Numbered from the stretch's first letter, positions 2,748-43,011 are shown. The stretch: DNA of 56,208 bases from an uncultured Mycoplasmatota bacterium (GCA_948466735.1 CAOKBR010000003.1:1-56208), one strand, 5' to 3'. Numbers and translations are program-made. The notes: generated by a model not told the origin, from the letters alone.

Positions 2748-3575
2748 TTAGATTTTTTTACAAAGATAAAAGATTACTCCACCGATGATAACTACTGCTA
2801 AAGTACCACCGATAACCATTGGGAAAACTCCTGTTTTTTCATCTTCCTCTACGGTATTAGAATATTGATCATCTTTTTTATCATCTGTAGATGGTTTATT
2901 AACGTTTGATGAATCATCCCCAGGCTTTATAGTTGAATCATTATCTTTTTCATCGTCTTCATCTTGATTAGCATTTGAATGGTTTGAATCATTAGATGGC
3001 TTTTGTTCTCCACCTGGTAAATTACCTGATGGATTACTTGGTGTTTTATCTTGATCGGTTGATGGATTTTGATTATCATCTTTATCATCATCTACAATAG
3101 GAGTTGTATTATAAACAAATTCTTGATGTTCAATGGTAGATACATCACTTTCTTCACTTGCTTGATAATCCATATTAGAAACATTTAACTTATTGATTTT
3201 TACATCGTATAAAGTATTATCTTTATCCGCTTTTACTTTAAGTATTCCAATATGTACTGTACCATCACTGCTAACTAAGTTTTTACTAGCATCTCCTGTT
3301 GCTATGTAAATTCTAATGATATTATCTTGATAAGTATATTTTTTTACATACTCACTAGCTAAAGACTCATCCCAGTTAATTTGTTCTAATTTAACATCTC
3401 CGCTAAGTTCAATGGTTACATCTAAAGCATTAAGGTATCCTGTATCAGTAGATAATTTTATTTCTACTTCCCCATTTGCTTTTGATTCACAATGTAAGGT
3501 AGAAGCCATAGCATCTATCGTTCCATTAAGGAATAATGCTATAGCAACTACAATGGTTAATATTATTTTCTTCAT
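2748..3575 (-). CDS. Membrane-anchored cohesin-like domain protein
   Basis: A 275-aa surface protein. Residues 1-25 form a signal peptide ending near AMAS. Residues ~26-155 read as a cohesin/carbohydrate-binding-like beta sandwich: LNALDVTIEL, then IIRIYIAT and SSDGTVHIGILKVKA, which follow the cohesin pattern. Residues ~160-245 are a Pro/Asp/Asn/Ser-rich linker, and residues ~251-272 are a transmembrane helix followed by KKI. There is no LPXTG motif, so anchoring is by the helix. Its ATG overlaps the stop of the upstream protease gene (ATGA), with AGGAG inside that gene's end, so the two are translationally coupled. The protease has a dockerin, so I infer this is its cell-surface receptor. 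The cohesin assignment rests on pattern only. Confidence 0.7.
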   Translation of the reverse strand: MKKIILTIVVAIALFLNGTIDAMASTLHCESKANGEVEIKLSTDTGYLNALDVTIELSGDVKLEQINWDESLASEYVKKYTYQDNIIRIYIATGDASKNLVSSDGTVHIGILKVKADKDNTLYDVKINKLNVSNMDYQASEESDVSTIEHQEFVYNTTPIVDDDKDDNQNPSTDQDKTPSNPSGNLPGGEQKPSNDSNHSNANQDEDDEKDNDSTIKPGDDSSNVNKPSTDDKKDDQYSNTVEEDEKTGVFPMVIGGTLAVVIIGGVIFYLCKKI

Positions 3576-6500
3576 CTTGCCTCTCCTTTAGTTGTATCAA
3601 TGATTTGCATTAATGGTAACTCTTCAATACTTGGTAAGTTGTGTATAGCAAGTGATGTACTAGTTAGACGTTGACCTTCATTCGTTAAGGCATCATCTAC
3701 TCGATATAACTCTGCGCGAATCGTTTTTCCTTGCATTTTTTGATATTGTTCTACTGTTACAACATAGAACCAATAACCTGATGCAATTTCATTAACTTCA
3801 TGATTACTATTTAACTTAGCAAATAGGAAGTTTTCTCCACTAAATACGCTATCTTCAATATTTTCATCATCACTTTGATAATTAGCATCTACTAATAACA
3901 TAGCATTAAATGCTGGATGACCACGGTATTCACCTTTAAATACGATGGAACCTTTTTTAATAACAGCATCATTTCCATTACTATCTAAGTAATGATAATC
4001 ATTTTCTAAAATGCCAATGGTATCTTTTGATAGTTCCACATTATCCCCAGGAGGTGCGATTACATCAAATTCGCTACCAGAAATTCCACTATTGCCAATT
4101 GCTTCAATTTTAATATAAGAAATATCACTATAAGTCCATAATTGATCTTTGCCTGTTGTTCCTTCTTTATCAAAGTATACAATATTACTAAATTGGTTAT
4201 CTTTATTTAATTTGAATGTTCCAGTTTTTGCTAAAATCCAATCTTCACGATTCTTACTAACATAAATGTTATATTTTTGAATGGCATTATCTAATAATTT
4301 TCCATTCTCACTAGCTGCTTGATACTTAATACCAGAAACATCTAATTTAGAATTTAAATCAATGATAACATAAGGATTAGTTTTATCTTTTAGATTAATT
4401 CTAGTTGTTCCATTAAAGATAGTATCTAATTGATTATCAATTAGCTGATTTATTTTAAGTTTAGCTGTATCCATATCAGGATCTTCTACATCGACAATTT
4501 CATCATTTTCCTTAAAGTTAGAAGTAATGCTAAAGTGATCTTTTTTAACACTTCCATCATGAGATACTTTTACTTCATCTAAGGTAGCGGTATTTGTTTT
4601 ATTTAGATATTTATCATATGCTGTAACTTCATAAGTAATCGCTTGATTATTCATAGAACCAATGATATCCGTAAACTCATTTTCAGTAGTAAACATAATA
4701 ACTACACCATTACGTTTAATTTCATATCCTAAAATAGTATCTTTACTCTTATCAACATCAAAAGTTAAGGTATAACGTTTATTTTGATTATCGGCCAAAA
4801 TTAAATTAGCACTTACCATCGTTGTATTATCCATAGCACTACCTTGGTTTAGACGATAACGTCTAGCATCATCATTCAAATACCAAATAGGGCGACTTTC
4901 TTTTTCTAAGTTCAAGCTAGCAATGTATTCAATTGCTTTATCACTAGGAGTTAATCCCCATTTTTGGAAGAACTCTGTTAAATCGTATCCTGCTGCTTGG
5001 CTAGCTAAGATAATTAATAACTCATCTTTTGTATAACCAGTTAATGTATTTCGTCTACTAAGACGGTTAATTTTAGCATAAATAGAGTCAACATCATCTA
5101 CTGTTTTATTATTATCATATGCTAAATGTAATTGCCAGTACATTCCAAGATTTACGAAGACATCGCTTCCTTTACCAAAGGTATTAGAGGTTACTTTTTG
5201 ATAAATTTTATGATATCTATCTTCAATTCTTGCTTTAGCTATATCATCATTTGTTTGTGCCAATAATGAGTAAACGTTATTAGTAACCTCAGCATAAGAT
5301 AAGTTTGCTTGATTAATTTGATGTCCAATTTCATGACTAATTCCCCAACCAAAGTATCCAGTTGTTCTTAATGTACCATCAATAACTTCGTTAGGTCTAC
5401 CTTGCATTAATCCAGCAATAGAACCATATTCAATACCAATATGATCACCTGATGCATACATAAATGCTCCATCAAACATTCTCATTAAGCGAATGTTAAT
5501 TCTTGATGATGGCGTTTTATCTTTAGGATCACTAGCATTTTCTGATAATCCTTTATGACGATAGAATAAATTCATCATTTCTTCAAAAGCTACTAATGAA
5601 CGATATAATCTCTCATTCATTTCTTCACTTCCACTTGCTCCAGCACGAATTCCATCATATGCAGCAGTAGCAGCAACAGAGAATAATCCATTTTTAGTAA
5701 CAATTTCAGTTGAATTTAATACACTAAGTTTACGATCAAAAGTCATTCCTTCTTCTTGATACATACTAGGTAGGTTTTCTACATAAGTTTTTAACTGTTC
5801 AATGTATGTAGATATAGCATTTTTAATTTCAATTTCATCGCTTAACTGGTGAATATCTAAAACAGGTATTTTTACTCCACCACTTACTCGAACTTTAATT
5901 TCTTTGTCAGCTGTTGCTTTTGGATAGCGAATATAAATTGATCCACCACGTTCTGTAGCCATTGTACCAATTTGGGGAACATCAATAATATTTTGCCCTT
6001 TTTTAAGATTTACTACAACTTGTTTCCAAGTCGATGCTTCAGCGTAATACTGAGTAAATACTAACTGTGGTAAGGTATTTCCTTTTGTTCCTACATAAAT
6101 GGTAATTTGATCTTTTGCTCGTACAGCTACTCCTAAAGGTTGTAAATCACTAAGTGGTGAGAAACCCAAATGAGTATTTTTAGTCGTTGAAATATTTTGA
6201 TCAACTATAATAGCATCTTGAATGGCTGTATCATTTAATATTTTTTTAGCGTAATCTAACTCGTTTAGTAATGCTGTTTTATTTGGATGATACTCCTTAC
6301 TAACTGGATCAATGGTATTTACTCGCTCTTCTAAGGCATTGATATCATCCATCGTTACGCCTTCTTTTAATTCAACGCGCAAATCATCTAAAAATAAATT
6401 GGCAACATCATCTACTAATGAATCATATTGATAAAATCTAACTTCTCTAATAGCAATATTTCCGCTAGCAGAGTAATTGGCCAAATTAATTTGAATTTGA

Positions 6501-8713
6501 TTCGTCGTAATTTTATTAAAATCTAGTCGATAATACCTTTGTCCATTTGGACTAGTAAGTGCTTTAATACTTGTTGAAATTTTCTTAGATATTCCATTTT
6601 CTAAATAATTAATTTTTGAATAGAAGAATGCTGCTTGATCATCCTTTGGTACGATAAAGATATGATCAATTGTATATTCATCATCAAAGTTAAAAATAGG
6701 TCCATTATTGAAAGCGTTATATCCTCCTAAATCCCAAGTATTTGCTTGATAATAAGAATTAAAATCATTATCCACTAAAGCAAATTCACTAGCTTGATTA
6801 CTATTTACTTTATATTGAATAGAAGTAATATGATTACTTGGTACTCCAGTTCCATTTGAGGTATTTAATAAAGCATAGTTAACCATATCAGGTAGAGTTT
6901 GTTCTTTTGTAGTGGCTGTTGCTAAAACAGATTTTTCTCCCTCGCCAAGATGATTATTTCCGTTGACATAAACTTCATAAGTTGTTCCTTCAACTAAATC
7001 TCTTAATTGATAACTATTTCCTTTAATATTTTCAATTTTCTTAAATTCTGAATCACCACTTTTACGGTAATAAATATTATAAGAAAGTGTATCTTTCATG
7101 TCTTTATAACTAATGTTAAAACCAGAACTAACAGGAGTCAAGTTAACCATATCAACTCTTGGAGGTAGGCGATTAGGTTCAGGGCTAAAGGAAACACTAT
7201 TACTATAGTTACTCTTCCATTCCCCGTTTACTGCTCTTACACTAACTTGATAATTTTTATAGTTCTTTAATTCTTTTATCACATAGTTTGTATAGGTTGT
7301 TTGATAAATGATATTGGAAACGATTTGCCCATCTTTTAATTCTTGAACTAAGATTTCATAACCAATGACATTACGTAATTGATCAAAGTTTATTTCAGCT
7401 TTTTCACTAGATGTGATAACAGAAATATTTTTAGGAACTTCTATTTCTGGAACAGGGACTTTTTCATAAACATTATTTAAAAATTCCACTTCTGCTATTT
7501 CTGCTAATTTTTTACTAGAAGTTTTTACAATTTTAATTGTTACTTTTTTAACAGCAATTTGCCCATCTAAATCAATAACAATCGTATTATCGTTAGCGGA
7601 ATCTGTAAAAAAGTGAATATTTTCTAGAATCGTTAATTCTTTTTCATAAGTGGTAACATTACCAAATTCATCAGTGATTTCTAAAATGATTGTTTCTGGC
7701 ACGTTTTCACTTTTTGTCCCTAAGCGAAATTGGCTCATTGTAATTGGTTGTTCTAAGTCAAACGACATTACCGCTGGATTCTCTTTAGAGATATCTTTTG
7801 TCTCATCGCTAGGTTTTACACTAACACTATCATTTTTTTGAAGTAAATCACTTACACTTCCGTCGATATTACCAGTAACCGTAATATTTTCGTAGTTCAT
7901 CATAGCACTAGTATCCACAATTTGTAAGTTTTTTGCTTCTCCGTTAATGCTACTAGCAATAATGGCAATATCACTAATATCAATCTTTCCATCACGGTTT
8001 AAATCAAAGGCGCCTACTTTTCCTTTATCTGTGTTATCGATATTTTCAATAATTAAATCGATATCATCCTCATCTACTTTTCCATCTTGGTTGACGTCCC
8101 CTATTTCAAATAAACCTTTTTCATTAGAAATAGATACACGTTTTGCATAATCTTTTAATTCGATATTACTAACGGTATAACTTTTATAACCATTTCCATA
8201 CAACTCGATACTATAAGTTCCTTGCTGTAATTGATAAATGGTAATGGAATAGTATTTTACTTGATCAAGATTTTGTCCATTTAAAACGATTCCTTCTTGA
8301 TCCATTTTTTTAATGGAAAGTTCTCCTTTTTGTTCTCCTAAGGTGTACGATAATGTAGACATCGTAGTAATTCCATTAAAATTAATATTTTGTTCATTAC
8401 CTTGTTCATCTTTTACAATAATTCCCATATTTGGATTTTCTGTATTTTGAATAGGTAAGGCAAATTTTAAATCAATTTCTAAGTTACCTTTTGGAATAAA
8501 TTCATCTACTACATTAGTGGTAACTTGATTATCATTTGTATCATCATTAGGTGTATTTTCTAAATTATTCATCATGGTCACTTTAGGACTTGATGAAGTA
8601 TTATCTAATTGATTTACTGGATTTGACACCGTATTTTTTACATTTAACATAGGTACAACAACAGTGTTAAATAGCATACAACAAGATAATACTAGGCTTA
8701 TGGCCTGTGACAT
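3572..8713 (-). CDS. Secreted M60-family (mucinase-type) zinc metallopeptidase with dockerin
   Basis: A 1,713-aa secreted protease. M60 enzymes cleave mucin-type O-glycoproteins. The order is: hydrophobic secretion signal (~1-20); beta domain (~60-200); type I-like dockerin (~204-256) with two calcium loops, D206-N208-D210-D217 and D237-N239-D241-D248; a discoidin-like domain (~285-415); two fibronectin III domains (~420-620); an F5/8 type C-like domain (~625-780); the M60 catalytic region with H1127-E1128-x-x-H1131 and E1142; and C-terminal interaction and discoidin-like modules. The metal motif fits HExGH(x8-28)E. The dockerin is near the N-terminus, which is unusual, and the signal peptide lacks N-terminal Lys or Arg. 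The ATG has GGAG/AGAGG 6-9 nt upstream. It overlaps the downstream cohesin-like gene by 4 nt. Confidence 0.9.
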   Translation of the reverse strand: MSQAISLVLSCCMLFNTVVVPMLNVKNTVSNPVNQLDNTSSSPKVTMMNNLENTPNDDTNDNQVTTNVVDEFIPKGNLEIDLKFALPIQNTENPNMGIIVKDEQGNEQNINFNGITTMSTLSYTLGEQKGELSIKKMDQEGIVLNGQNLDQVKYYSITIYQLQQGTYSIELYGNGYKSYTVSNIELKDYAKRVSISNEKGLFEIGDVNQDGKVDEDDIDLIIENIDNTDKGKVGAFDLNRDGKIDISDIAIIASSINGEAKNLQIVDTSAMMNYENITVTGNIDGSVSDLLQKNDSVSVKPSDETKDISKENPAVMSFDLEQPITMSQFRLGTKSENVPETIILEITDEFGNVTTYEKELTILENIHFFTDSANDNTIVIDLDGQIAVKKVTIKIVKTSSKKLAEIAEVEFLNNVYEKVPVPEIEVPKNISVITSSEKAEINFDQLRNVIGYEILVQELKDGQIVSNIIYQTTYTNYVIKELKNYKNYQVSVRAVNGEWKSNYSNSVSFSPEPNRLPPRVDMVNLTPVSSGFNISYKDMKDTLSYNIYYRKSGDSEFKKIENIKGNSYQLRDLVEGTTYEVYVNGNNHLGEGEKSVLATATTKEQTLPDMVNYALLNTSNGTGVPSNHITSIQYKVNSNQASEFALVDNDFNSYYQANTWDLGGYNAFNNGPIFNFDDEYTIDHIFIVPKDDQAAFFYSKINYLENGISKKISTSIKALTSPNGQRYYRLDFNKITTNQIQINLANYSASGNIAIREVRFYQYDSLVDDVANLFLDDLRVELKEGVTMDDINALEERVNTIDPVSKEYHPNKTALLNELDYAKKILNDTAIQDAIIVDQNISTTKNTHLGFSPLSDLQPLGVAVRAKDQITIYVGTKGNTLPQLVFTQYYAEASTWKQVVVNLKKGQNIIDVPQIGTMATERGGSIYIRYPKATADKEIKVRVSGGVKIPVLDIHQLSDEIEIKNAISTYIEQLKTYVENLPSMYQEEGMTFDRKLSVLNSTEIVTKNGLFSVAATAAYDGIRAGASGSEEMNERLYRSLVAFEEMMNLFYRHKGLSENASDPKDKTPSSRINIRLMRMFDGAFMYASGDHIGIEYGSIAGLMQGRPNEVIDGTLRTTGYFGWGISHEIGHQINQANLSYAEVTNNVYSLLAQTNDDIAKARIEDRYHKIYQKVTSNTFGKGSDVFVNLGMYWQLHLAYDNNKTVDDVDSIYAKINRLSRRNTLTGYTKDELLIILASQAAGYDLTEFFQKWGLTPSDKAIEYIASLNLEKESRPIWYLNDDARRYRLNQGSAMDNTTMVSANLILADNQNKRYTLTFDVDKSKDTILGYEIKRNGVVIMFTTENEFTDIIGSMNNQAITYEVTAYDKYLNKTNTATLDEVKVSHDGSVKKDHFSITSNFKENDEIVDVEDPDMDTAKLKINQLIDNQLDTIFNGTTRINLKDKTNPYVIIDLNSKLDVSGIKYQAASENGKLLDNAIQKYNIYVSKNREDWILAKTGTFKLNKDNQFSNIVYFDKEGTTGKDQLWTYSDISYIKIEAIGNSGISGSEFDVIAPPGDNVELSKDTIGILENDYHYLDSNGNDAVIKKGSIVFKGEYRGHPAFNAMLLVDANYQSDDENIEDSVFSGENFLFAKLNSNHEVNEIASGYWFYVVTVEQYQKMQGKTIRAELYRVDDALTNEGQRLTSTSLAIHNLPSIEELPLMQIIDTTKGEAR

Positions 8714-8885: not shown

Positions 8886-8962
8886 TGGTGCCCATGATAG
8901 GATTTGAACCTACTACCTATAGCGTCGGAGGCCATCGCTCTATCCAAGTGAGCTACATGGGC
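8886..8962 (-). tRNA. tRNA-Arg (CCG)
   Basis: Acceptor GCCCATG pairs with CATGGGC, the discriminator is A and CCA is encoded. The D-arm is GCTC...GAGC, and the anticodon loop CTCCGAC gives CCG, reading CGG. The T-loop is TTCAAAT. All arms are intact. Confidence 0.95.
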
Positions 8963-21211: not shown

Positions 21212-21832
21212 CTATAAACCTTTTTTAGCATATACATTCACCCTTACCTCATAACGTTGAGGAACTCCTTCTATTTGGGCATTTTCATCTACCCACATGC
21301 GAAGTCGATAATGATTTATCGTAGTTCCTTTTTTATTAAAGCTTGATGTTTCCATAACCATTGAGCCTGCTGGTGAACCATTGTTAGATGCTACGGTTAA
21401 GGGAATAAAATGACTTGGTGCCATAACTTCTTGATATGTTGTATCTGAATCTATCATTTTTTCTAAATACAATTTTACCTCATCATCCCCTAGTGCTCCT
21501 AAAGAGCCTGTTTCTACTATCTCCTGTTTCACCGCTGTTACTTCATAAGGAATGTTGATATCACTAGATAAAGTTGCTTCTACAGTAAAATCAAAACTTT
21601 TTCCATCTCCTGATAATAATTTTCCCATTTCATCACTAACAGGAAAGACATCAACTAAATTAATTCCCGTTGCCCCTTCGGTATAAGTTAATTGAATAGT
21701 CCCTGTGGTAATTATGTTTTCTACCTGGCCTTCCTTAGCAAAAGTAAAGGCCGCATAAGTAAATCCAATTGTTAATAACATTAAAATTGCTACATACCCT
21801 ACATTAAACCAAAATTTTATTTTTTCTTTCAT
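21212..21832 (-). CDS. TasA/CalY-like protein with SipW-type signal, intact
   Basis: A 206-aa secreted protein from the ATG at 21832. AAAGG lies about 9 nt upstream; the in-frame ATG at 21874 overlaps the promoter and has no ribosome site. The N-terminus is basic, then a membrane segment ending TIGFTYAAFTFAKEGQVEN, the pattern processed by SipW-like signal peptidases. The core (~50-205) ends NHYRLRMWVDENA and VRVNVYAKKGL. It is the only unbroken member of this family in the window and lacks the variable C-terminal domain of the others. TasA relatives form matrix fibres; that role here is inference. Confidence 0.75.
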   Translation of the reverse strand: MKEKIKFWFNVGYVAILMLLTIGFTYAAFTFAKEGQVENIITTGTIQLTYTEGATGINLVDVFPVSDEMGKLLSGDGKSFDFTVEATLSSDINIPYEVTAVKQEIVETGSLGALGDDEVKLYLEKMIDSDTTYQEVMAPSHFIPLTVASNNGSPAGSMVMETSSFNKKGTTINHYRLRMWVDENAQIEGVPQRYEVRVNVYAKKGL

Positions 21833-21869
21833 TTTCTTTTTCCTTTTCCTATTTTTATCATAATAAATT

Positions 21870-21898
21870 CCCATTTATCGTACCATAATTTTAAAATT
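21870..21898 (-). promoter_or_regulatory. Promoter of the intact TasA-like gene
   Basis: On the minus strand TTTACA and TACGAT are separated by 17 nt. It lies just after the terminator of the candidate ncRNA, so the two are separate transcription units. Confidence 0.5.
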
Positions 21899-34053: not shown

Positions 34054-35559
34054 TTATGAAGATGATATTACTACGCTCCCAACACTTCCAGTTACAAATG
34101 GTGTTCCTGTAGTTCCTCTAATAATATCATTCCAATCAAAACTTCTTCCTGTTTTATTAATAATCTTTTCTAAATTTGGATTTGAAGAAGAGTACTTATA
34201 TAATGCCATTTGCCCAATCGTTGTTACACTACTAGGAATAACTATGCTAGTTAATTGATTATCAAGAAATGCCCCTTGCCCAATCGTTGTTACACTACTA
34301 GGAATAACTATACTAGTTAATTGATTTCTAGAAAATGCAGAATTTCCTATTAATGTTACACTATTTGGTATTGTTACGCTTGTTAATTGATTATTAGAAA
34401 ATGCATAATCTCCAATTGTCGTTACATTATTTGGTATTTCTACGCTTGTTAATTGATTAGTAGAAAATGCAAAATTTTTTATTGATGTTACACTATCAGG
34501 TATTGTTACACTTGTTAATTGATTATGAGAAAATGCCAAACCTCCTATTGTTGTTACACTATCAGGTATTGTTACACTTGTTAATTGATTATAATAAAAT
34601 GCAGAATTTCCTATTGTTGTTACACTATCAGGAATTGTTACGCTTGTTAATTGACTATAAGAAAATGCAGAATCTCCTATTGTTGTTACACTATTAGGGA
34701 TAGATAAAGAGACAAGACTATTTTCATAAAATGCATAATCTCCAATACTTGTTATCGTATTTGGAAGAACTACACTAGTCAAACGAGTAGTTCTATTAGC
34801 AAAGACATTATCGCCAATTGTTGTTACTTTTACTCCATCAATAGTGTATGGAATTACTACGTCACTACTACATTCATCACTATATCCAGTAATTGTTCCT
34901 GTTGTTTTTTCAAAGGTAAAACATGCTTCATCTGTAAAGTTTTCACTAGATACTTGTTTTGCATACACATTTACTTTTACTCCATACTTTCTTGATTCAC
35001 CGTTTGGAATTTCTGCACTTTCATCTACCCACATACGTAATCGATAGTTATGAATTGTTGTTCCTTCTTCCATAAAAATTCCTGAATCTAAAATCATTGA
35101 GCCTATTGGAGAACCTACTTCACTTTGACTTTACATTGCCAAAAAATTACTAGGAGCCATTACTTGTTGATAAGTTGTATCAGGATCTACTGCTCTTTCT
35201 AAATAAAGTTTTACTTCGTTATCTTCTAAAGGGGTTACATCGCTAATTGGCAGTTTTACTGCACTTACTTCGTAAGTTATAACATTACTTTTTCCAAGAG
35301 TTGCTTGGACTGTAAAATCAAATACATTGTTTTCACCTACTAAAACTTTTCCTTTTTCATCAGAAATCGGATACGCTTCATTTAACATAATTCCTGTTTT
35401 TCCTTCGGTGTATGTTAACACGATGGTTGACGTTTCTAGAGTATTTTCAACAGTTCCCTCTTTTGTAAAGGTAAATGCTGCAAAAGTGACTCCTATTGTT
35501 ATTATTACTAAGAGAAAAAGCATTACTATAGATACAATTATTTTCTTTTTATTTTTCAT
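34054..35559 (-). pseudogene. TasA-like N-terminus with BspA-type LRR C-terminus, broken by one nonsense codon
   Basis: The ATG at 35559 has GGAG upstream. The N-terminal part carries the SipW-type segment and FTFTKEGTVENTLETS. The frame stays open to the end except for one TAA at 35131-35133 (after SNFLAM), where the intact relatives have no stop. The neighbouring copy has GAA (Glu) at that point, so a single G-to-T change explains it. Downstream are ten leucine-rich repeats of the LRR_5/BspA type (TTIGNSAF...NQLTSVTIPDSV, 23 residues each), then NKTGRSFDWNDIIRGTTG and the end VISSS. Unless the stop is read through, only ~142 residues are made. Confidence 0.75.
34190..34810. repeat. Tandem ~69-bp coding repeats (LRR units)
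   Basis: About nine near-identical 69-bp units encode the 23-residue LRRs of the surface protein. Several neighbouring units differ by only a few bases, so copy number could change by slippage or recombination. Confidence 0.8.
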
Positions 35560-36397: not shown

Positions 36398-37755
36398 TTA
36401 ATTCGTAATTACCACATCTCCAACAAAACCAGTAACAAACATAGTCCCTTTAGTTCCGTTAATAATATAATTCCAGTCAAAGCTTCTTCCCGTTTTATTA
36501 ATAATTTGCGTTAAATTATAGTTCAATTTAAAAACGCTATCATGAATTTCCAATACATTACTTGGAATAGTCACTATGATAAAATCATTTAATCTAAACG
36601 CTTCTGTTTTTATTTTGGTAACACTTTCTGGAATAAATATACTAGTTAAATGATTTCCATTAAAAGCCAAAGACTCTATAGTTTCGACAAAATCTGGAAT
36701 AACCACATTTTCTCTTTTCGCACCTCCATAACTTAATAATTTAGTATAATCAATATTTGCATCATCACTTCGCCGATAAAAGAAGGCTTGCTCATCTGGT
36801 AGCTGATTATCGTTAAATGCTCCTAGCCCAATAGTTTCAATACCATTAGGAAGAGTTACATTTCTTAACTGATTAGAAAGAAAAGCGAATCTTCCTATAA
36901 CTTTTATATTTTGTGGAAAAACTATTTCCGTTAACTTATTGTTATAAAACGCACTTTCTCCGATTTCTTTTATATTACTTGAAAAAGTAACACTAGTTAA
37001 TTTCTTATTCAAAAAAGCTTTATCACCCATTTTAGTAACCTGTACTCCATCAATAGTGTATGGAATCACTACATCTTTTGGACAATTGTCATCATAATCA
37101 GTAATGGTTCCTGTAGATGAGTCAAATGTAAAACAAGACTCGTCTGTAAAGTTTTCACTTGATACTTGTTTCGCATACACATTCACTTTTACTCCATACT
37201 TTCTTGATTCACCGTTTGAAATTTCTGCACTTTCATCTACCCACATACGTAAACGATAATTATGAATCGTTGTACCTTTGGTATAAAATGCCCCCCGAAT
37301 CTAAAATCATTGACCCTACTGGTGAACCTACTTCACTTTGACTTTCAATTACTTGGTGCTAAAACTTGTTGATAAGCGGTATCAGGATCTACTGCTTTTT
37401 CTAAATAAAGTTTAACCTCATTATCTAAAAGTGATGTTACATCAGCAATTGGTATCTTAACTGCACTTACTTCATACGAAATTACTGTTGATGTTCCTAG
37501 AGTTGCTTGCACCGTAAAATCAAAAATGTTGTTTTATAAAACTAAAACTTTACCCTTATCATCACTCATTGGATACACTTCACTTAAAGTAATTCCTGTT
37601 TTACCTTCCGTATAGGTTAACATGATGGTTGATGTTTCCAAAGTATTTTCAACTGTTCCTTCTTTCGTAAAAGTAAATACGGCAAAAGTTACTCCAATTG
37701 TTACTATCACCAATAAAAGTAACATCGCCAAAGGAAATATTATTTTCTTCTTCAT
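36398..37755 (-). pseudogene. Second TasA/LRR surface-protein copy, multiply broken
   Basis: The N-terminus at 37755 (TFTKEGTVENTLETS) runs to a nonsense codon at 37534 (VLVL-stop, where the relative has VLVGENN). The next segment continues in frame, then stops and shifts near 37345 after APSN, where ~11 nt seem lost. A run of six G (37291-37296 on minus; five expected) shifts the frame again just before TIHNYRLRMWVDES. From there to 36398 the frame is open: a degenerate LRR domain with less regular repeats than the copy at 34054 and the shared end NKTGRSFDWNYIINGTKG. Confidence 0.72.
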
Positions 37756-41765: not shown

Positions 41766-43011
41766 TTATTTATTAATCATCACTACTGCTCTACCTCCTA
41801 TTTTTGTGTTTCCTGTATGATAAGTGCTCATTACCCCGTAACCACGTATGCCCCAAGCATGAGTAGAAACATTTGAATTTGCATTCATTGTCAAGTATCC
41901 GTTGTTATCTTCATTCTCTCCTGCTTCATCTACTGTTCCCCCATTAGAAGTAGAATTTATTAAATAATTATACATCCATACTGGACAGGTTCCATTAGTT
42001 ACACCGTTATCATACGCTAAACACCCTAAATTATGTGCTTCTTGTACACTAATCATTCTAGACTTTGCAGTACTACTTTCTAAAGTATATGTATTAACTG
42101 CACAGGTAAATTTATTTGTTGTTAAATCATAACTACATCCAGTAAAAGCATTATCTTTAAAGATAGTAGTTCCCATAGTATAGGTTTGATCAAGTACATT
42201 ACTCCATCCACTAGTCGCATTTTCTAAGGCTTCTAATACTGTTAACGGTCCTTTCGTGTTATCATTAGCATCAGCATACCACGCAGTAGAATATACTGTA
42301 TTTTCTCGTTGTTGTAGCATTAAGGTATCCCCATTATCGCTTATTACGTGAAAATATTTCTCTTCACTATCGTTTACTTGATATTTTATGATGGTACCTT
42401 CTCGATAAGTCGCCTGTGGTGCTAAACTTTGACAGGTCTCTTCTTCTCCTGTTACACAAAAGGTGGATGATTCCCTATTTTGATTATATTGGTAAATTGC
42501 TAAAATATTAGGATTACTTTCAGGTTCAGTAACTGGTGTTGCTACTACATCTTGTTTAGCATACACATTTATTTTTACTCCATATTTTCTAGTCTCACCA
42601 CTTGGAATCAACGTACTTTCATTTATCCACATTCTTAAACGATAATGATATATGGTAGCACCTGTATTGGTAATATTTCCAAAGTCTAATACCATTGACC
42701 CTATAGGAGAGCCTATTTCACTTACCGCGATACTTGGTATAAACGCTTTTGGTGCCATCACTTCTTTATAAGTAGTATCTGGGTCAATTACTTTTTCTAA
42801 ATAAAGTTTTACCTCATTATCTTCTAGTGGTGTTACATCATTTATTGGTAATTTTATAGCAGTTACTTCGTAGCCAATGGGTACACTTCTAGATAAATTT
42901 GCTTGAATGGTAAAATCAAATACTTGGTTAGTTCCCATCAATGCTTTTCCTACTTCATCAGAAATGGGATACGCTTCTTCTAAAGTAATTCCTGTTTTTC
43001 CTTAAATTGAG
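41766..43011 (-). pseudogene. TasA-like surface protein with Cys-containing C-terminal domain, 5'-truncated
   Basis: The open frame begins GKTGITLEEAYPISDE at about 43011, directly after a TAA. The export signal and the first ~55 residues expected from the relatives are missing. The core (VMAPKAFIPSIAVSEIGS, YHYRLRMWINES) is sound. The C-terminal ~240 residues form a domain with Cys pairs (FCVTGEEETC, GCSYD...FTCAV) and the end GNTKIGGRAVVMINK, unrelated to the LRR type. An ATG at 42941 could make a cytosolic product, but without the signal it cannot reach the surface. The sequence before the break is an Rpn-type nuclease relic. Confidence 0.7.

Follow-up and report, generated by a model that had tools for sequence, protein, structure and literature searches.

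A candidate two-gene surface-display module of an M60 protease with an X-dockerin and a membrane-anchored cohesin in an uncultured Mycoplasmatota bacterium

Cohesins and dockerins are known above all for the pairing that holds multi-enzyme scaffolds together. We describe here a locus of an uncultured Mycoplasmatota bacterium where this pairing is reduced to a single plug and a single socket, apparently in place of a membrane anchor. The window, that is, the whole stretch of DNA analysed, is 56,208 nucleotides (nt) long (GCA_948466735.1, CAOKBR010000003.1:1-56208), and the two genes of interest encode an M60 protease carrying a dockerin and, directly after it, a membrane protein with a cohesin fold (Table 1). 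They very probably form a two-gene surface-display module, in which the protease would be held via an X-dockerin by the membrane cohesin of its neighbor.

The closest described systems

At the cell surface of Ruminococcus flavefaciens, the ScaE cohesin binds the X-dockerins of ScaB, CttA and the putative cysteine peptidase RflaF_05439 (PMC5301203, PMC3573020). A single surface-anchored cohesin thus holds X-dockerin proteins, one of them with a peptidase-like fold, and the genes scaE and cttA belong to the same sca cluster. ScaE, however, is sortase-linked (LPXTG), serves several clients and forms the base of a cellulosome, whereas the anchor protein of the window, also with one cohesin, ends in a transmembrane helix closing with CKKI, without an LPXTG-like motif, and its gene always lies beside one protease gene. 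Unlike the ScaE clients, the window's X-dockerin is N-terminal, and its genome has no other dockerin or Pfam-detectable scaffoldin. The nearest solved structures to our X-dockerin model are the type II cohesin-X-dockerin complexes of Clostridium thermocellum and Acetivibrio cellulolyticus (PDB 2b59, 5g5d, 4u3s, 4wi0). That system links a scaffoldin to the cell surface, and its X-dockerin ends a multi-cohesin scaffoldin; in the window the X-dockerin belongs to the N-terminal part of a protease, and a scaffoldin is lacking.

Non-cellulosomal systems offer further parallels. Among the glycosidases of Clostridium perfringens (PDB 2jh2, 2ozn, 2vo8), a cohesin-like module is the nearest solved structure to the anchor domain, and the NagH dockerin is found among the profile and fold matches of the window's dockerin. 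There, cohesin and dockerin both sit on enzymes that are joined pairwise (PMC12997984), in contrast to the separate membrane anchor of the window. The Limousia mucinolysome also uses cohesin-dockerin pairing for mucin, and its members include peptidases with a dockerin and cSca5, a cohesin protein anchored to the cell wall, but it has multi-cohesin scaffoldins, many dockerin glycosidases and LPxTG anchoring where the window has one enzyme and one membrane socket (PMC12997984). The mark of a cellulosome or mucinolysome, several cohesins on a scaffoldin that take up several dockerin enzymes, is not seen here: the window's genome holds one dockerin, and its anchor protein has a single cohesin domain. 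No Pfam cohesin was found in this genome (1.06 Mb in 58 contigs, 92.8% complete), although draft genomes may hide others and the cohesin family of the anchor escapes Pfam.

Dockerins on proteases of the same catalytic family had already been tabulated by Nakjang et al. 2012, whose survey of M60-like/PF13402 proteins includes two with a type I dockerin; cohesins are unmentioned in its text and no paired anchor is described (PMC3267712). Our literature search returned no paper combining dockerin with RF39, the presumed order of the lineage. A preliminary description of the locus, made from the DNA sequence, had proposed a minimal, protease-only display. The novelty of that proposal is reduced by ScaE, by the dockerin M60 proteins of 2012 and by the dockerin peptidases and LPxTG cohesin protein of Limousia.

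An X-dockerin on the protease and a cohesin fold on its neighbor

Tandem calcium-loop repeats, a profile match and a dockerin fold all identify the dockerin of the protease. It is the one Dockerin_1 match above cut-off in the whole genome, and the next candidate, a weak one located in MutS, was rejected, making a chance match unlikely. A hint of a module ahead of the dockerin came from a PDB sequence search, where a scaffoldin X-dockerin aligned with protease residues 159-257. Residues 83-265 were modelled by AlphaFold2 with 17 homologues at a mean pLDDT (predicted local distance difference test) of 91, and the 11 best PDB fold matches of the model were all X-dockerin or dockerin chains. The first of these belong to type II X-dockerin complexes (A. 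cellulolyticus, C. thermocellum), and C. perfringens NagH comes after them. The sequence profile of this region also matches PDB X-dockerins. As modelled, the plug of the protease is an X-dockerin dyad, like those that anchor scaffoldins in type II systems, and not the plain type I dockerin of the preliminary description, which had recognized both calcium loops near the N-terminus (D206-D217 and D237-D248) and missed the X module. Across the pairs described below, the second dockerin repeat (DLNxDGxxDIADLNYITA) is better conserved than the first, which suggests that the dockerin binds in a single mode and lacks the dual one of its symmetric counterparts.

The anchor protein begins with a hydrophobic signal-like segment. 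Its AlphaFold2 model, obtained with six homologues, shows a beta-sandwich predicted with confidence (block means of 83-95 across residues 31-130), followed by a linker with 17% mean identity among homologues. When the model was compared with the PDB using Foldseek, 25 of the 26 matches at E<=1e-3 were cohesins (probability 1.00), the best being 2jh2, the cohesin-like module from C. perfringens (2.7e-5), and 2xdh, a cohesin of archaeal origin (3.0e-5); the target-normalised TM-scores of the matches were moderate, mostly 0.4-0.67. The predicted ectodomain is therefore a cohesin by fold, in a sequence family of its own. The PF00963 cohesin profile, the usual but not the defining mark of a cohesin, matched neither the window's anchor nor its six homologues nor two anchors of another family. 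Comparison of the anchor with the Pfam cohesins of the lineage gave a probability of 63 with the signal peptide included and 0.4 with the domain alone, and we claim no sequence-level link. The layout proposed earlier (signal peptide, one cohesin-like domain, long linker, transmembrane anchor) can be followed throughout in sequence and model, and the check on whether the domain might fold as something other than a cohesin returned the cohesin fold.

Conservation of the pair and apparent exchange of the membrane anchor

A profile of the anchor detected 22 anchors in 291 family genomes, and all 22 lie directly 3' of a same-strand M60 gene, including one fragment at a contig edge (G197). The distance from M60 stop to anchor start ranged from -32 to +93 nt in the 21 family loci measured. 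Linker and transmembrane segments gave the full-length profile many false matches, so that later searches relied on a profile of the domain alone. With this profile, a hold-out of 288 genomes of the order yielded 14 new anchors, and the 13 with upstream DNA were all preceded by an M60 with an X-dockerin. The pair was also present in 3 genomes of another family among 395 genomes of the class, each time with the anchor 3' of the M60; M60 and dockerin were both recognized by Pfam in the two of these that were scanned. A class-level match in G450 was rejected as an ABC-transporter-like protein. In G474, which is much more divergent, a weak anchor match directly follows an M60 gene, and the X-dockerin profile matches the N-terminus of that M60.

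In total, the anchor is found directly 3' of an M60 gene in 38/38 checkable loci, window included, so that the search of related genomes for the same adjacent pair, suggested in the preliminary description, bore the idea out. A dockerin or X-dockerin was seen in every paired M60 with a visible N-terminus (36/36), and loop residues D206, D210, D217, D237, D241 and D248 are identical in 30/30 pairs. A chance adjacency or an assembly artefact could be suspected in a single incomplete draft of 58 contigs, but this explanation is refuted by the relatives, where the adjacency recurs in dozens of genomes from two families.

The protease of the window has no C-terminal membrane helix as judged by hydropathy (maximum over 19 residues within the last 100 residues). 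Such a helix was absent from all 35 paired M60s (maximum 0.13-0.98), whereas the seven unpaired M60s of the family each have a C-terminal hydrophobic segment of their own (2.27-3.19), as do the 34 anchors measured (1.89-3.69). Fisher's exact test for membrane helix against pairing gave 3.7e-8, shared ancestry ignored. The seven unpaired M60s showed no dockerin as far as their sequence is visible; for two of them, hmmscan did not reproduce the M60 assignment made in the genome search. That paired M60s lack the membrane anchor that unpaired ones possess points to display, and the simplest reading seems to be that paired M60s obtain in trans, from the cohesin protein, the anchor that other M60s carry in cis. 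Fold, conserved pair and this alternation together support the display of the protease on the membrane that had been proposed, though not its type I dockerin or its equal synthesis.

Several points weigh against display. The pairs are of common ancestry and hence not independent events, and the seven unpaired M60s form a separate M60 subgroup. Up to three of these (L163-L165) may lose their N-terminus to a contig end, which leaves four clean cases. Co-variation of distance matrices gave a partial correlation of 0.48 for cohesin and dockerin and 0.46 for cohesin and fibronectin type III (fn3) domains, nothing specific. The anchor sequence had no significant match in Pfam, NCBIfam or the PDB, merely transmembrane and low-complexity noise, and the domain alone gave no significant profile match to the Pfam cohesins of the lineage. 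One could then imagine that the X-dockerin is a mere calcium-stabilised structural spacer and the neighbor an independent surface protein, for example an adhesin, with a cohesin fold: the anchor resembles cohesins by fold alone, no specific co-variation is seen, and the dockerin-cohesin binding is something that we infer. This is improbable, as a dockerin fold and a cohesin fold stand in adjacent genes, together in 38/38 loci, and as the protease membrane helix is lost in exactly the paired loci, which would be hard to explain without an interaction.

A probably dedicated pair and related modules

The model that we favor is one where the M60 protease would be exported without a membrane anchor of its own, and its N-terminal X-dockerin, loaded with calcium, would bind the single cohesin of the protein encoded by the next gene. 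The anchor protein would keep the enzyme at the membrane through a flexible acidic tether of about 90 residues and one transmembrane helix, in a one-to-one, dedicated pairing. Binding of the dockerin to the neighboring cohesin is suggested by adjacency and by the anchor swap, and it would probably need calcium. The pair may well be dedicated, since only one dockerin, and no cohesin besides that of the anchor, can be detected in the genome.

Cohesins and dockerins are known to cross-bind from one species or toxin to another. The dockerin could accordingly find its cohesin elsewhere, in another protein or species, while the neighbor's cohesin binds a different ligand; we regard this as very unlikely, given that no other cohesin was detected in this genome and that the adjacency is invariant. 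A somewhat stronger case, though still an unlikely one, can be made for the membrane cohesin as a one-socket general scaffold that takes the M60 plus other dockerin proteins, unrecognized here or coming from neighboring bacteria. ScaE of R. flavefaciens has several X-dockerin clients (PMC5301203), some relatives of the window's bacterium carry several dockerins and cohesins, and partners could go unseen as the cohesin family is invisible to Pfam. The single detectable dockerin of the genome and an anchor gene that always adjoins an M60 gene favor the dedicated pair instead.

Other modules of the lineage resemble this pair. Dockerins occur in 220/291 family genomes and Pfam cohesins in 99/193, and matching the two lists showed at least 41 cohesins, in at least 39 genomes, that start 104-157 nt after a same-strand dockerin. 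In the examples read, a glucosaminidase (relative of SagB and Autolysin E) ends in a dockerin and is followed by the gene of a cohesin plus cadherin-like protein with a hydrophobic segment at its C-terminus. Both halves of this pair are visible to Pfam, which supports our reading of the M60 pair; a search of the window's own genome, made without a positive control, did not find the glucosaminidase of the parallel pair. The chances seem even that a general rule holds in these small-genome Bacilli, with cohesin-dockerin pairing as the usual means of keeping secreted enzymes on the membrane in trans. Every such enzyme gene, be it for an M60 protease, a glucosaminidase or something else, would then have a private membrane cohesin encoded after it, and the partners of each pair would be specific for one another, as a distributed alternative to a scaffoldin.

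Glucosaminidase-cohesin modules were located at L084:261-3613, L085:2517-5769 and L086:2907-6171. Operon-like clusters at L087:4050-11339, L088:851-5100 and L089:3572-11001 join genes for four kinds of protein: one with a dockerin (and in L087 a CAP domain), a sortase-like one, a long one of immunoglobulin (Ig) repeats whose end is LPxTG-like, and a short one that combines a cohesin with a membrane helix. A 2,887-amino-acid (aa) protein at L020:4637-13300 (G011) carries a cohesin at its N-terminus and, beyond two hydrophobic segments, a dockerin, and several other open reading frames (ORFs) of about 2,100-3,200 aa in the lineage contain cohesins. In the 1.3-Mb genome G217, adjacent genes for several dockerin and several cohesin proteins form a small cellulosome-like cluster (L083:1997-19669).

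The protease itself shows the marks of the M60/enhancin group, an M60 profile match and an HExxH-x(n)-E motif, of which H1127, E1128, G1130, H1131 and E1142 are invariant in relatives (alignment A2). Further fn3 domains follow past residue 509 (Pfam). Its closest PDB sequence relatives are M60-family chains, with E down to 2.5e-40, including ZmpA and ZmpC, entries which we take to be C. perfringens M60 glycopeptidases. Going by the M60 family and these two relatives, the substrate would be mucin or another O-glycoprotein. The signal-like N-terminus (window 8639-8713) lacks the usual positive charges, likewise in a sister (G001, L170), and several relatives have M60 proteases with ordinary signal peptides. 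A SAR116 contig match (L014) was set aside because it spans only the first 46 residues of the query.

Protease and anchor genes follow each other in this order on the minus strand and have the four bases ATGA in common, as the preliminary description had noted. Equal synthesis by translational coupling, which it had derived from this overlap, was dropped: the stop-start overlap is not general among relatives, and most anchor genes, the window's included (AAAGGAG), have a Shine-Dalgarno-like sequence of their own. Promoter and terminator scans gave results near chance.

Table 1. Features of the protease-anchor locus (window coordinates)
Feature	Position	Strand	Evidence
M60 protease gene	3572..8713	-	1,713 aa; ORF, Pfam, PDB sequence search, hydropathy
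X module, protease residues 83-199	8117..8467	-	AlphaFold2, fold matches, profile match to PDB X-dockerins
Dockerin, residues 205-256	7946..8101	-	Pfam Dockerin_1 30.1 bits, cut-off 22.9
Dockerin calcium loop 1, residues 206-217	8063..8098	-	D206, D210, D217 identical in pairs
Dockerin calcium loop 2, residues 237-248	7970..8005	-	D237, D241, D248 identical in pairs
First fibronectin type III domain, residues 427-509	7187..7435	-	Pfam fn3 47 bits, two stretches
Peptidase_M60 domain, residues 1107-1253	4955..5395	-	Pfam 62.6 bits; PDB relatives ZmpA, ZmpC
Catalytic motif HEIGH-x10-E, residues 1127-1142	5288..5335	-	Read directly; intact
F5/8 type C (carbohydrate-binding-like) domain, residues 1425-1519	4157..4441	-	Pfam 30.2 bits, cut-off 28.2
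AAAGGAG, Shine-Dalgarno-like, of anchor gene	3583..3589	-	Inside protease gene end
ATGA overlap, protease stop/anchor start	3572..3575	-	Read directly
Membrane anchor protein gene	2748..3575	-	275 aa; ORF, AlphaFold2 model, hydropathy
Cohesin-fold domain (predicted), anchor residues about 26-155	3111..3500	-	AlphaFold2 model; Foldseek PDB matches are cohesins
Long acidic linker, residues about 160-250, predicted disordered	2826..3098	-	pLDDT <50 at 164-254
C-terminal transmembrane helix, residues 253-274	2754..2819	-	Helix in model; hydropathy 2.42

The protease gene has a gene for tRNA-Arg(CCG) immediately upstream of it (window 8886-8962). The neighborhood is different in relatives L018, L019 and L021, where a thioredoxin-reductase-like gene is near the pair. 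In another relative (G013), a 1,078-aa ORF with a Cas9-looking start (MKYIIGLDLGIDNVGYSVI) is found some kilobases downstream of the M60 pair (L017:16687-19923). Elsewhere in the window, four paralogous secreted-type proteins (21212-21874, 34054-35097, 36398-37246 and 41766-42941) have a WVDESAEI...RKYGVKVNVYAKQ-like segment in common, and two of them carry leucine-rich repeats of the 'LTSVTIPDSVTTIGNSAF' kind.

The bacteria that host this pair are widespread, little-studied Bacilli with small genomes, and the pair reveals a whole family of cohesins that Pfam-based surveys overlook. If binding is confirmed, the module would be a minimal natural display system, and its dozens of divergent, possibly mutually specific pairs would be available for protein engineering. 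It would also offer an entry point to the possible action of these bacteria on host glycoproteins.

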